This document shows, piece by piece, positions 32,402 through 42,317 of a DNA stretch of 64,000 nt. This DNA comes from Acetobacter conturbans (lineage in GTDB: Bacteria > Pseudomonadota > Alphaproteobacteria > Acetobacterales > Acetobacteraceae), in the NCBI RefSeq assembly GCF_011516755.1, contig NZ_WOSY01000005.1:186001-250000 (forward strand), in the 5' to 3' direction. The notes beneath the pieces were generated by a model. The model saw nothing but the letters and a program-made list of their open reading frames with translations, did not search any database and was not told the DNA's origin. Within the stretch, counting starts at the first letter, position 1, and each line of letters opens with the position of its first letter. The position numbers and the translations under genes are program-made.

Positions 32402-32944
32402 TCAGGCGTTCTGAAGGCCGTTGGCGATGATGGTCTGGGCTTCGGCAGGCGTAAGCGTGGTGGTGGCAGGAGCGGAGACCGCGCCGATCAGGGCTTCGAG
32501 CGCGGGGAGAAGGGCCGCCACGGCTGCGACGATGGTATTGACCGGAGACGGTAGGACGCTCTGAAAGTCCTGAAGAATAGCCAGCGCGGCGGAGGCGGCG
32601 CTTTCAGCGGTAGCGACCCAGTTCTGGGCAACGGTCAGTGTGACATCCGACGCCGCCGAAGCCGCGACCTGTGCCGTCACGGTGCTGATCCGGGTGATGG
32701 CGGCCGTGACGGTGGCAGCATTCGTCGTGCCGATCACGGTGGTGACGGCGGTGGCGTTCACCAGCTCCGTCAGACCCGATTCAATGCTGCTGATGATGGA
32801 GAGAAGTTTTGTCACATTGACGGAATAGGTCGTGCTGCCGCCGGATGTGGTGGTCGTGCAGGCACTGAGCGCCGCGGTGACGCCAAGGGCACCAAGCGAT
32901 GCGATGCCGGACCTGAGCAGGTTCCGACGAGAAAATGAAGGCAT
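32402..32944 (-). CDS. Tat-type lipoprotein, Thr/Ala/Val-rich
   Basis: 180 aa. The N-terminus MPSFSRRNLLRSGIASLGALGVTAALSAC combines a twin-arginine-like SRRNLLR with an LSAC lipobox, so it should be exported folded and lipid-anchored. The mature chain is highly biased: Thr-rich after the Cys (TTTTSGG), then long Ala/Thr/Val segments that look like amphipathic helices, with a short conserved-looking end (LTPAEAQTIIANGLQNA). AAGGA is 7 bases before ATG 32944. Function unknown; it reads in the same direction as the GT4 gene, with 69 bases between. Confidence 0.75.
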   Translation of the reverse strand: MPSFSRRNLLRSGIASLGALGVTAALSACTTTTSGGSTTYSVNVTKLLSIISSIESGLTELVNATAVTTVIGTTNAATVTAAITRISTVTAQVAASAASDVTLTVAQNWVATAESAASAALAILQDFQSVLPSPVNTIVAAVAALLPALEALIGAVSAPATTTLTPAEAQTIIANGLQNA

Positions 32945-33180
32945 GAAAATTCCTTGATTTAACGAATGAATATCAAATTGCAGATATAAAAAAGACGCGG
33001 AAAGGCGGTGTGCGTCGCGCGCGTTTCGCTCAGGCGCGCCGCACACATTATAAATGTCCTTAGAGCGGGCAAAGAGCCGCTATGCTGCCAGCGACCGGGA
33101 ATGGGGGAACTTCCCCCCCGCCGATCCTGCCGGTAGTGTCGCCGTGTTATCCCGTTTCAGCCCTGTCGTGAGGCCAGCAA

Positions 33181-35704: not shown

Positions 35705-36176
35705 GGCCGGTGATGTCGGACATGGCGACGCGGAAGGCAAGGGAAAATCGGCCTTCGTGAAATGGCGGCAAACCACATGCGCCATGTCGGGAGCCCGCGT
35801 TCTGACCTGTCGCTGCCGTTCCATCGTCTTCAATGATGAAGCGGGACAATCAATGGTCAGAATGCTCAGGCGGCAAGAAGATTAAGGTACGGGTCATCCC
35901 GGTTCGGGAAGCCGGTCCTCCTTGGCGGAAGGTGGGGACATGCTATTCCAACAAAATATGAAGAAGTCTCTCACACCGGTTTATTTAAAATAACTATTCA
36001 TATTTTGACGATATTTTATTGCTGAGTGTAACGATTTTATGGCGATCTCTTGATGAACTAATAACACCGTAAAGCAAAGATTAACGGCCTATTATCTGTG
36101 TGCTGTCAGCGAGGGCTGCTAAACCAGAATTCATCAAACACTTACAATAATACTTCGAAATAAAAAGGTAGAACAG
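35705..36176. other. Intergenic region with AT-rich promoter zone
   Basis: The part next to queE is its leader; no preQ1 riboswitch motif was found by eye. From about 35940 to 36176 the DNA is AT-rich and leads into the secreted peptide gene, with AAAAAGG 8 bases before its ATG. No other gene is seen. Confidence 0.5.
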
Positions 36177-36581
36177 ATGTCAGCGATGCGTGAACTGTCC
36201 ATTGCAGAACTCGAAACCGTCGCTGGCGGTTGCTGCTCTCATTCACAGCATGCATGCGGTGGTGGAGGGCAGTCTTCTGCTTCCCTTTCCGGCATGATCG
36301 GTGCTTACGCCGGATACCTGGCAGGCATGTACAATGTGAGTGCTGATTACTTCAACCACGCCAGCTGCTCGACCATCTCCAGCGCCTGGCAGAATGTCGC
36401 TTCCGATGAGAAAATCGGCTACTCCACGACACAGAACATGTCTGTCGGCGACGCCATGAAGTTCCTACAGCAGACCATCTCCACGATCAGGAGCGCGGTG
36501 ACGGTCTCGGGCTGTGGCTGCATCACCGGTGAAAACGCCATCGCTTTCCCGATCACCTCTTCCTCCAGCACGTTTGGCTGA
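36177..36581 (+). CDS. Double-glycine leader secreted peptide (bacteriocin-like)
   Basis: 134 aa. The first 18 residues, MSAMRELSIAELETVAGG, match the leader of class II bacteriocins and microcins (RELS-x-x-EL-x-x-V-x-GG), which a C39-peptidase ABC exporter removes after Gly-Gly. The predicted mature part starts CCSHSQHACGGGG and is rich in Gly, Ser and Thr. It has a small hydrophobic GMIGAYAGYLAGMY segment and cysteines at both ends (CC, C, C near the middle, CGC). It is longer than most bacteriocins. No immunity, modification or exporter gene lies in the window. Terminators on the downstream side make it monocistronic. The leader call is strong; killing activity is only inferred, and a structural or signalling role is possible. 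Confidence 0.7.
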   Translation: MSAMRELSIAELETVAGGCCSHSQHACGGGGQSSASLSGMIGAYAGYLAGMYNVSADYFNHASCSTISSAWQNVASDEKIGYSTTQNMSVGDAMKFLQQTISTIRSAVTVSGCGCITGENAIAFPITSSSSTFG

Positions 36582-36703: not shown

Positions 36704-36752
36704 AAAAAGACTGGCTCCCGTGCTTTGCAGCACCGGAGCCTTTTCCTGTTTT
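36704..36752. terminator. Bidirectional Rho-independent terminator
   Basis: GGCTCC-C-GTGC pairs with GCAC-C-GGAGCC (36713-36740). TTTTCCTGTTTT follows on the plus strand, and TTTTTTCTTT follows on the minus strand. It serves both the peptide gene and the convergent nitrate-reductase-associated gene. Confidence 0.88.
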
Positions 36753-40692: not shown

Positions 40693-41010
40693 ATGACACA
40701 TATGAATTATAAAGAGCAAGCGCGGTCGATGCCGTATGATGGCCCCAATCCCATTCGGATGAGCGAGAGATCATGGCGTCTCATGATGGCCCCCCTCACG
40801 CCTGAGCAACGCAGTGAACTCACGCAGTTGTGGGAACAGGCCCGTTACACAAGCCGGATAGCGATCTCCTCGGTGAGTCCCTCTGGGGATGCTTCATCAG
40901 GCGCACTGGAAAATGCCGAAACCGCCATGACGATGCTTCTCGACAAACTGTCTGAACTGAATGTCCGGCACCCTGTCGAGGGGCTCGTTCTGGTGGGGAG
41001 CGCGGTCTGA
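40693..41010 (+). CDS. Small hypothetical protein next to the repressor
   Basis: 105 aa, soluble, with a helical central part (LTPEQRSELTQLWEQARYTSRIA) and GALENAETAMTMLLDKLSEL. No family recognised. ATG 40693 or ATG 40702 could be the start; both have weak ribosome binding sites. Its stop overlaps the start of the next gene (TGATG). The last third of its sequence is repeated in the tandem duplication downstream. Confidence 0.6.
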   Translation: MTHMNYKEQARSMPYDGPNPIRMSERSWRLMMAPLTPEQRSELTQLWEQARYTSRIAISSVSPSGDASSGALENAETAMTMLLDKLSELNVRHPVEGLVLVGSAV

Positions 41011-41279
41011 TGGTGAAAAAATTCGAATCTGCCCGCGCCGAGAGCGTGGAGAAAGCCGCCCTTGATCTGTATGGGAAGGGCAAGAGTATCCGGGCGATTT
41101 CCGATCAGATCGGTGCTTCGCGTTCCTATGTCCACCGACTGCTGATGCGCCGCCGCACGGAAGAACTGACCGCCATGGTGAGCCGCCGTCGGGTCGCGCA
41201 TGGCAACGAGCCGCTCGCGCCGGGAAACGCGATCAGCATGGGCGCCATCTCGTTCCATAACCGGCGGTATGTGAATTGA
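41010..41279 (+). CDS. Small helix-turn-helix protein, copy A
   Basis: An 89-aa basic protein. Residues about 12-45 (VEKAALDLYGKGKSIRAIS, then DQIGASRSYVHRLLMRRR) form a resolvase/MarR-like helix-turn-helix suited to DNA binding. The rest is short and basic. It is translationally coupled to the 105-aa gene. An identical copy lies 570 bp downstream. Function unknown; the divergent repressor may control it. Confidence 0.65.
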   Translation: MVKKFESARAESVEKAALDLYGKGKSIRAISDQIGASRSYVHRLLMRRRTEELTAMVSRRRVAHGNEPLAPGNAISMGAISFHNRRYVN

Positions 41280-41393
41280 AGCAGACATGTTCACATGATT
41301 TGAGAACGCTATTTCAACCGGAAGCGATTTCGGCACTCACCTCCTGTGCTCCGACAGGAGGCAATCTGCCTGTTGTTCGCTCCGGCGTCCGCA

Positions 41394-41465
41394 TCACTGC
41401 CCTTTTTTAGCCGCGTCGAACGCATCCATGATTCGGGTCGAATAGACCAGCGCCGCGCCCGCATT
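41394..41465 (-). pseudogene. 3' fragment of the AhpD-like gene in unit A
   Basis: The last 24 codons of the AhpD-like gene, including its stop (ending MDAFDAAKKGQ), left upstream by the tandem duplication. It has no start of its own and is fused in frame to antisense sequence of unit B. Confidence 0.85.
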
Positions 41466-41580
41466 ATCAGGCGCACTGGAAAATGCCGAAACCGCCATGA
41501 CGATGCTTCTCGACAAACTGTCTGAACTGAATGTCCGGCACCCTGTCGAGGGGCTCGTTCTGGTGGGGAGCGCGGTCTGA
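41466..41580 (+). pseudogene. 3' fragment of the 105-aa gene in unit B
   Basis: The last 37 codons and stop of the 105-aa gene, without a start codon or ribosome binding site. It ends overlapping the second helix-turn-helix gene. Confidence 0.8.
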
Positions 41581-41849
41581 TGGTGAAAAAATTCGAATCT
41601 GCCCGCGCCGAGAGCGTGGAGAAAGCCGCCCTTGATCTGTATGGGAAGGGCAAGAGTATCCGGGCGATTTCCGATCAGATCGGTGCTTCGCGTTCCTATG
41701 TCCACCGACTGCTGATGCGCCGCCGCACGGAAGAACTGACCGCCATGGTGAGCCGCCGTCGGGTCGCGCATGGCAACGAGCCGCTCGCGCCGGGAAACGC
41801 GATCAGCATGGGCGCCATCTCGTTCCATAACCGGCGGTATGTGAATTGA
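41580..41849 (+). CDS. Small helix-turn-helix protein, copy B
   Basis: Same 89-aa sequence as the gene at 41010-41279. Its upstream coupled gene is reduced to a fragment, so its translation may depend on transcription from unit A or be lost. Confidence 0.55.
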   Translation: MVKKFESARAESVEKAALDLYGKGKSIRAISDQIGASRSYVHRLLMRRRTEELTAMVSRRRVAHGNEPLAPGNAISMGAISFHNRRYVN

Positions 41850-41963
41850 AGCAGACATGTTCACATGATTTGAGAACGCTATTTCAACCGGAAGCGATTT
41901 CGGCACTCACCTCCTGTGCTCCGACAGGAGGCAATCTGCCTGTTGTTCGCTCCGGCGTCCGCA

Positions 41964-42317
41964 TCACTGCCCTTTTTTAGCCGCGTCGAACGCATCCATG
42001 ATTCGGGTCGAATAGACCAGCGCCGCGCCCGCATTCAGCGCAATGGCGACGCTCAGTGCCTCTCCGATCTCGTCCCGCGTTGCCCCCGCCTTGACGGCTT
42101 CGGCGGCATGAATGGTGATGCAGCCGTCGCAGCGTGTGGTCGCCGCGACTGCAAGAGCGATCAGCTCGCGCGTTTTGGCGTCGAGATGCCCGGTCTTCTC
42201 GCCCGCGCCGTTGAGGGCCAGGATGCTCGAGACCGTGTCGGGGGAGACGGTGGCATAGGCGCCGATCGCCTTGCCGAGATGTTCGCGCCGTTCGTTCCAG
42301 TCAGACCAGTCACTCAT
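41964..42317 (-). CDS. AhpD-like carboxymuconolactone decarboxylase-family protein
   Basis: A 117-aa alkylhydroperoxidase-like protein. ATTRCDGCITIHAAEAVKAGAT carries the CxxC pair and the following His of the AhpD active site. Family members reduce peroxides with CxxC chemistry. Read as TTRCDGCITIHAAEA for the motif proper. The 3' end lies inside duplication unit B. It is divergent from zapE, and two TGACGTCA palindromes lie between. Confidence 0.88.
   Translation of the reverse strand: MSDWSDWNERREHLGKAIGAYATVSPDTVSSILALNGAGEKTGHLDAKTRELIALAVAATTRCDGCITIHAAEAVKAGATRDEIGEALSVAIALNAGAALVYSTRIMDAFDAAKKGQ

Follow-up and report, generated by a model that had tools for sequence, protein, structure and literature searches.

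Which exporter, if any, could serve a gene that encodes a double-glycine leader and has no transporter beside it, and what would its product do outside the cell? The question is raised by a 64,000-nucleotide stretch of an Acetobacter conturbans genome (C5:186001-250000, in an assembly of 88 contigs and 3.88 Mb), referred to here as the window. A preliminary description, made from the letters of the window alone, had read one of its open reading frames as an orphan double-glycine leader peptide with an unusually long core. Translation agrees with that reading of the frame (Table 1). The leader has the sequence MSAMRELSIAELETVAGG, in which E6, L7, G17 and G18 do not vary across any of the 20 homologues aligned. 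The core of 116 residues (computed pI 5.8) carries 3 basic and 5 acidic residues, contains Cys and Ser and, by eye, has a Ser/Thr-rich, uncharged C-terminal end. Hydropathy analysis of the core revealed no strongly hydrophobic stretch or membrane-spanning segment (highest 19-residue mean, 1.12).

Table 1. Features of the precursor gene and its upstream region (window positions; +, forward strand).
Feature	Position	Strand	Basis
Precursor gene, 134 aa	36177..36581	+	Translation, homologues, dN < dS
Double-glycine leader, residues 1-18, predicted C39 cleavage after Gly18	36177..36230	+	G17/G18 invariance; leader profile
Core, residues 19-134, 11.8 kDa, net charge ~ -2	36231..36578	+	Alignment, model, composition
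Glycine-zipper-like stretch GAYAGYLAG (residues 42-50), first predicted helix	36300..36326	+	Motif; AlphaFold2 helix 37-59
Conserved promoter-like motif (putative) TTAACG-N3-TATTATCTG, 79 bp before ATG	36081..36098	+	Motif comparison

The CC at the start of the core and the CGC near its end, which had been singled out earlier, are present as residues 19-20 and 113-115; both vary across the family, and the number of core cysteines ranges from 0 to 8 in the 20 homologues. Conservation lies elsewhere. Beyond a variable region (residues 19-36), core positions including G46, G50, Y52, N53, N60, F124 and P125 are invariant in all 20 sequences, and a [GAS]xxxGxxxG stretch is found in 19 of them, the exception being L040. 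The rate of dN was below that of dS in 14 of 15 homologue pairs (dS was not computable in the 15th), with dN of 0.04-0.10 and dS of 0.22-1.0 in close pairs. Judged by these rates, the gene is under purifying selection. The invariant leader residues together with dN < dS signify that the frame is a real gene, and a chance open reading frame was ruled out by the homologues and the selection.

The preliminary description had noted that no exporter lies in the window and that one encoded elsewhere would be needed; a genome lacking any C39-type exporter would have spoken against its reading. The window indeed holds no C39 exporter, and a single C39 domain was found in the genome, at C5:95814-96200. 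It belongs to a 746-aa ABC protein (C5:95769-98009, ~124 kb from the window gene) comprising Peptidase_C39 (PF03412, 131 bits, residues 16-144), ABC membrane and ATPase domains, in which Cys27, His100 and Asp116 have the same spacing as the catalytic Cys32, His105 and Asp121 of CvaB. The exporter gene follows that of a 437-aa HlyD-family protein, which in turn follows a paralogue of the window protein (C5:93884-94276, 52% identity, on the window's contig and 128 kb upstream). A genome-wide search for other genes with this leader, also suggested earlier, used a profile of 16 leaders and returned only the window gene and the paralogue at E < 1; three other matches, at E 1.3-1.4, were at chance level, and one of them was inspected and dropped. 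The gene is therefore an orphan in one sense only, standing alone at its own locus while its paralogue lies beside an exporter in the same genome. Because this paralogue adjoins the one C39 exporter found, there is good support both for the reading of the leader and for dependence on an exporter elsewhere. From these comparisons, the window gene is an old duplicate of the exporter's cargo gene, and support that is strong, though indirect, makes it very probable that the leader-bearing protein is a cargo of this distant exporter. For the outer membrane, many sites of the genome scored above the cut-off of the OEP family, providing candidate OEP/TolC-type partners only.

We surveyed 49 Acetobacter genomes at a family match threshold of E <= 0.001. 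Matches were found in 15 genomes: 13 had strong ones, G020 a distant one (8e-24) and G024 a marginal one (8e-4). A C39 domain was detected in 20 of the 49, including all 13 with strong members, each of which has exactly one C39 exporter; these and the other counts are not independent, since many of the species are closely related. Among the 29 genomes with no detected C39 domain, one (G020) has the distant family relative. Seven further Acetobacter genomes have C39 exporters and no strong family member (loci L088-L094, L107 and L108), G024 with its marginal member being one of the seven. The order peptide-HlyD-C39 ABC occurs in 13/13 strong-member genomes, a count in which the G007 contig begins inside the peptide gene and three of the 13 are named loci matched by coordinates, and also at three Gluconobacter loci. 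A copy linked to queE, as in the window, is present in 11 of the 13, with A. nitrogenifigens (G011) and A. sacchari (G069) having the cassette copy only. Named homologues come from A. sicerae, A. estunensis, A. musti, A. fallax, A. oeni, A. sacchari and A. nitrogenifigens, and more distant ones from Gluconobacter frateurii, G. thailandicus and G. japonicus. In G013 a third, more divergent copy was observed (L033:9895-10302), with no match to the HlyD or C39 protein of the A. conturbans genome within the surrounding 20 kb.

A search of relatives gave matches in 12 of 61 at E <= 0.01, one of which (G051, E 0.0037) was outside the genus and was not recovered by the profile search. At least 11 of 397 genomes matched in a family-level sample, weak leader-only matches included, and at least 1 of 385, the source genome itself, in a class-level sample; scoring was confined to the best 10 or 11 candidates from a first look at each genome, which makes both figures lower bounds. 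Scanning contigs with the single sequence found nothing, and scanning with the alignment found 18 loci. In a tree of the family, 6 of 22 inner branches were well supported, among them a clade of nine Acetobacter cassette copies; the order of duplication was not resolved, and G013x, G020 and the Gluconobacter sequences sat on long branches. A phage or plasmid origin was rejected after no match was found among phage, plasmid or viral-contig collections.

All 11 queE-linked copies adjoin queE, queC and a queD-like gene, with a variable downstream flank. The QueE-like enzyme encoded next to the window gene is a radical-SAM protein (its Radical_SAM score falls just below the cut-off, and the name QueE is based on its place with queC and on homology). 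Such a neighbour, beside a core that has Cys and Ser, could suggest a RiPP, with Cys, Ser or Thr residues modified before export. We consider this most unlikely, as the enzyme sits in what is a queuosine set, no modification gene was recognised beside the window gene or the paralogue, and some homologues have no core cysteine at all.

The region upstream of the gene had been described as an AT-rich promoter zone. The AT-richness was confirmed, with a GC content of 0.375-0.395 against 0.60-0.64 in the preceding gene, but a scan of the gene's flanks found no sigma-70-like consensus promoter. The two terminators claimed alongside it were not confirmed: one terminator-like site was found (36722-36739, +), where 0.9 would be expected by chance. 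The two cargo loci share a motif, TTAACG-N3-TATTATCT. In the form TTAACG-N3-TATT[AG]TCT it is present in 11/11 queE-linked copies, 79-82 bp upstream of the start codon. Ten of these copies served to build a matrix, which was run on 1.58 million bases (both strands counted); the top 22 matches, some of which are one genome under two locus numbers, all lie upstream of family genes, the lowest scoring 20.5 bits and the next match 13.9. They include the cassettes of Gluconobacter, A. nitrogenifigens and A. sacchari, none of which was in the training set. With a shorter matrix, trained on queE-linked copies only, the cassette copy outscored all background windows at its locus in 11 of 15 cases. The matrix failed in the other four, where windows as good or better numbered 6/740 (G026), 119/740 (G015), 18/756 (A. 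fallax) and 3/758 (A. estunensis AV380); a 16th row, the extra copy G013x, rose above background through a different, partial match and was left uncounted. A degenerate pattern of the motif has two occurrences in the genome, upstream of the window gene and of its paralogue (backward control, 0), although it was designed after both upstream regions were known, and the queE-trained matrix is the more independent test. The motif common to the queE-linked and exporter-linked copies appears promoter-like.

Could the window gene be a degenerate left-over of duplication, its export and use lost? Its position, 128 kb away from the paralogue, ~124 kb from where the exporter gene ends and without another cassette gene alongside, would fit such a fate. 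The gene is, however, intact in 11 genomes, with dN < dS and with the motif kept in every one of them, and we regard its decay as highly improbable.

Two other features of the window were recorded. An exact 570-bp tandem duplication (40896-42035; copies 40896-41465 and 41466-42035) gives two identical 89-aa open reading frames (41010-41279 and 41580-41849) and also repeats the end of a neighbouring 117-aa gene. A frame at 32402-33046 (-) has, by eye, a twin-arginine and lipoprotein-like start (SRRNLLRSG...SAC) and an Ala/Thr/Ser-rich low-complexity body.

The structures of the window protein and its G. frateurii homologue were predicted with AlphaFold2. The two models, which are not independent because their input alignments have many rows in common, both consist of a low-confidence leader and linker (residues 19-36 in the window protein) followed by three longer helices (residues 37-107 in the window protein), with block pLDDT values of 77-92 from residue 41 on. 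A small C-terminal hairpin is present in the window protein model and absent from that of G. frateurii. Neither model matched a PDB structure at E <= 0.001, and the best PDB sequence match had E 0.35. The earlier statement that the core matches no bacteriocin family holds for the window protein at curated cut-offs: its Pfam and NCBIfam matches were all under threshold, Bacteriocin_IIc (PF10439) reaching 14 bits against a cut-off of 27.1. Across the family, weak matches to MccV and to Bacteriocin_IIc were each found in 9 of 20 members (best E 8.9e-4 and 0.0037, respectively; limit 0.1). DUF2157 (5/20 members, best E 0.017) and two single weak Pfam matches were treated as chance.

To look for an immunity gene, frames of at least 25 aa were compared from -700 to +1500 at 10 queE-linked copies and from -400 to +700 at 11 cassette copies. 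This small-frame comparison yielded no candidate for a dedicated immunity gene beside the window gene or the paralogue. The small frames conserved in several genomes were parts of queE, of hlyD or shadow frames of the cargo genes; one antisense shadow frame in the cassette (50 aa, hydrophobic) was matched in 6/10, and a 27-aa frame in the upstream zone in 2/9. At the queE loci of at least 8 of 10 relatives, eight being an indirect count since the query was an out-of-frame reading of the gene, a UPF0060 gene lies between queE and the cargo gene. It encodes a YnfA-type membrane protein (107 aa in L024:9527-9850 (-)) of a size fitting an immunity protein. This gene is absent from the window, two UPF0060 genes lie elsewhere in the genome, and members of the family also turned up in control genomes, among them those of E. 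coli and B. subtilis, so it was not taken as a dedicated immunity gene. The cargo may have a hidden one. According to the available text of a review (PMC10233263), there are double-glycine peptides in Bacteroides that lack an immunity protein, so that a missing immunity gene is not fatal to the bacteriocin reading.

Beside the exporter cassette, a divergent gene encodes a 578-aa Hint_2-domain protein (e.g. L023:7736-9472 (-)). It is present at 12/12 Acetobacter loci whose contig extends that far and in G. frateurii; a BTAD-type regulator follows at 10/13 loci and is absent there in A. nitrogenifigens, A. sacchari and G. frateurii. The same export route could carry a non-toxic cargo, a conserved cell-surface, pellicle or signalling protein of these acetic acid bacteria acting with the Hint-domain protein. 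We treat this as a tentative but serious alternative, to which the recurrent Hint_2 gene, the lack of a detected immunity gene, the conserved core with dN < dS, its predicted three-helix domain and the locus beside queE, fixed in 11/11 genomes, all lend weight. A well-conserved helical domain and a fixed locus are unlike what is expected of a typical bacteriocin. Against the non-toxic reading, the glycine zipper and the weak MccV matches favour microcins. To our knowledge, few cargoes of such Gram-negative exporters are known beyond class II microcins. The described cargoes in the available text of the review are class II microcins (PMC10233263). A broader form of the idea, possible though rather unlikely in our view, is that of a vertically inherited secreted family of acetic acid bacteria that borrows microcin export machinery without being a conventional bacteriocin: two co-regulated cargoes from separate loci, served by one C39 exporter, would do their work in the absence of an immunity gene, perhaps with the Hint-domain protein at the cell surface.

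On balance, we think it somewhat probable that the product of the window gene is a precursor from which a secreted protein like the class II microcins is made, exported in trans and most likely a bacteriocin. The C39 ABC exporter of the genome would recognise the 18-residue leader through its peptidase domain and cut after Gly18, and the 116-residue core would leave the cell via this exporter, the HlyD-type protein that goes with it and an outer membrane channel of TolC type. The window gene would be an old cargo duplicate settled beside queE with a related promoter motif, and since that motif is kept, the two cargoes are probably produced at the same time. The mature protein would most likely act as a short-range bacteriocin against neighbouring bacteria, perhaps paired with the paralogue in the manner of CdzC and CdzD. 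The leader, the paralogue, the exporter cassette, their co-occurrence, the motif and the selection can be read from the sequences, and from them we infer cleavage, export in trans and co-expression. Antibacterial action is probable but the least certain part; the class II microcin precedent, the Cdz-like glycine zipper, the near-uncharged core and the weak MccV and Bacteriocin_IIc matches speak for it. The explanation as a whole has to accommodate the failure to find a dedicated immunity gene, a core above the usual microcin size with no strongly hydrophobic stretch, the strong conservation and fixed locus, the G020 relative in a genome with no detected C39 domain and the 4 of 15 cassettes with no convincing motif.

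The locus shows that a likely C39 exporter cargo can sit far from its exporter, with no partner gene nearby. Such cargoes would be missed by screens of exporter surroundings, for example under the 10 kb rule in the available text of PMC5380434. Through a shared promoter-like motif, cargo genes at scattered loci can be tied to their exporter by simple means. Vinegar making, cocoa fermentation and the fly gut are settings in which Acetobacter and Gluconobacter are important, and there a secreted factor for competition or for the cell surface could be put directly to the test.

Among open-licence papers, we found none on an Acetobacter double-glycine bacteriocin or on an Acetobacter C39 peptidase or HlyD protein, and none of the titles and abstract openings listed dealt with the family of the window protein. 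The word Acetobacter is absent from the main text of PMC9746304, PMC11494933, PMC13174018 and PMC5380434; in the available text of PMC3751514 the relevant mention is confined to the reference list, and that of PMC2765452 concerns a lysozyme-like bacteriocin of Gluconacetobacter.

Among known systems, class II microcins such as MccV (CvaC, CvaA, CvaB) share the 18-aa double-glycine leader (15-18 aa in the available text of PMC10233263), a cargo gene accompanied by an HlyD-type fusion protein and a C39 ABC exporter, here in the paralogue's cassette, and a Gly/Ser-rich, nearly uncharged core. They differ from the Acetobacter protein in size, with mature proteins of ~5-10 kDa (PMC10233263, available text) against a core of 11.8 kDa, and in their setting, the window copy lying ~124 kb from the exporter gene. 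The 15 characterised microcins in that text all come from Enterobacteriaceae, whereas the present host belongs to the Alphaproteobacteria and the family of the window protein matches the MccV profile weakly. Class II microcins were also defined here by an adjacent immunity gene of 51-216 aa, usually with membrane helices, whereas no dedicated one was detected for the Acetobacter cargo. For want of such a gene and because of its oversize core, the window protein was not filed as a class II microcin, although it appears microcin-like in leader and export. Bacteriocin_IIc resembles it in the leader, but the score is below the cut-off.

The other close parallel is Cdz, the glycine-zipper bacteriocin system of Caulobacter, which forms cell-surface aggregates and kills on contact and for which the available text of PMC5380434 specifies proteins of 60-151 residues with a leader ending in G[G/A/S], a type I exporter within 10 kb and a glycine zipper uninterrupted by Pro or charge. 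The Acetobacter cargo genes differ in lying at two loci, the exporter being within 10 kb of the paralogue but ~124 kb from the window gene, and the window protein has 134 aa against the 86 and 84 aa of CdzC and CdzD (PMC5380434, available text). No CdzI-like membrane immunity protein was recognised near the Acetobacter cargo genes; CdzI is itself without obvious homologues in that text, so a CdzI-like gene may lie elsewhere in the genome. The likeness, drawn from described features, is that both systems are alphaproteobacterial, with a GG leader, a length within 60-151 residues, an uninterrupted glycine zipper (GAYAGYLAG here), a type I exporter and two cargo proteins per genome (PMC5380434, available text).
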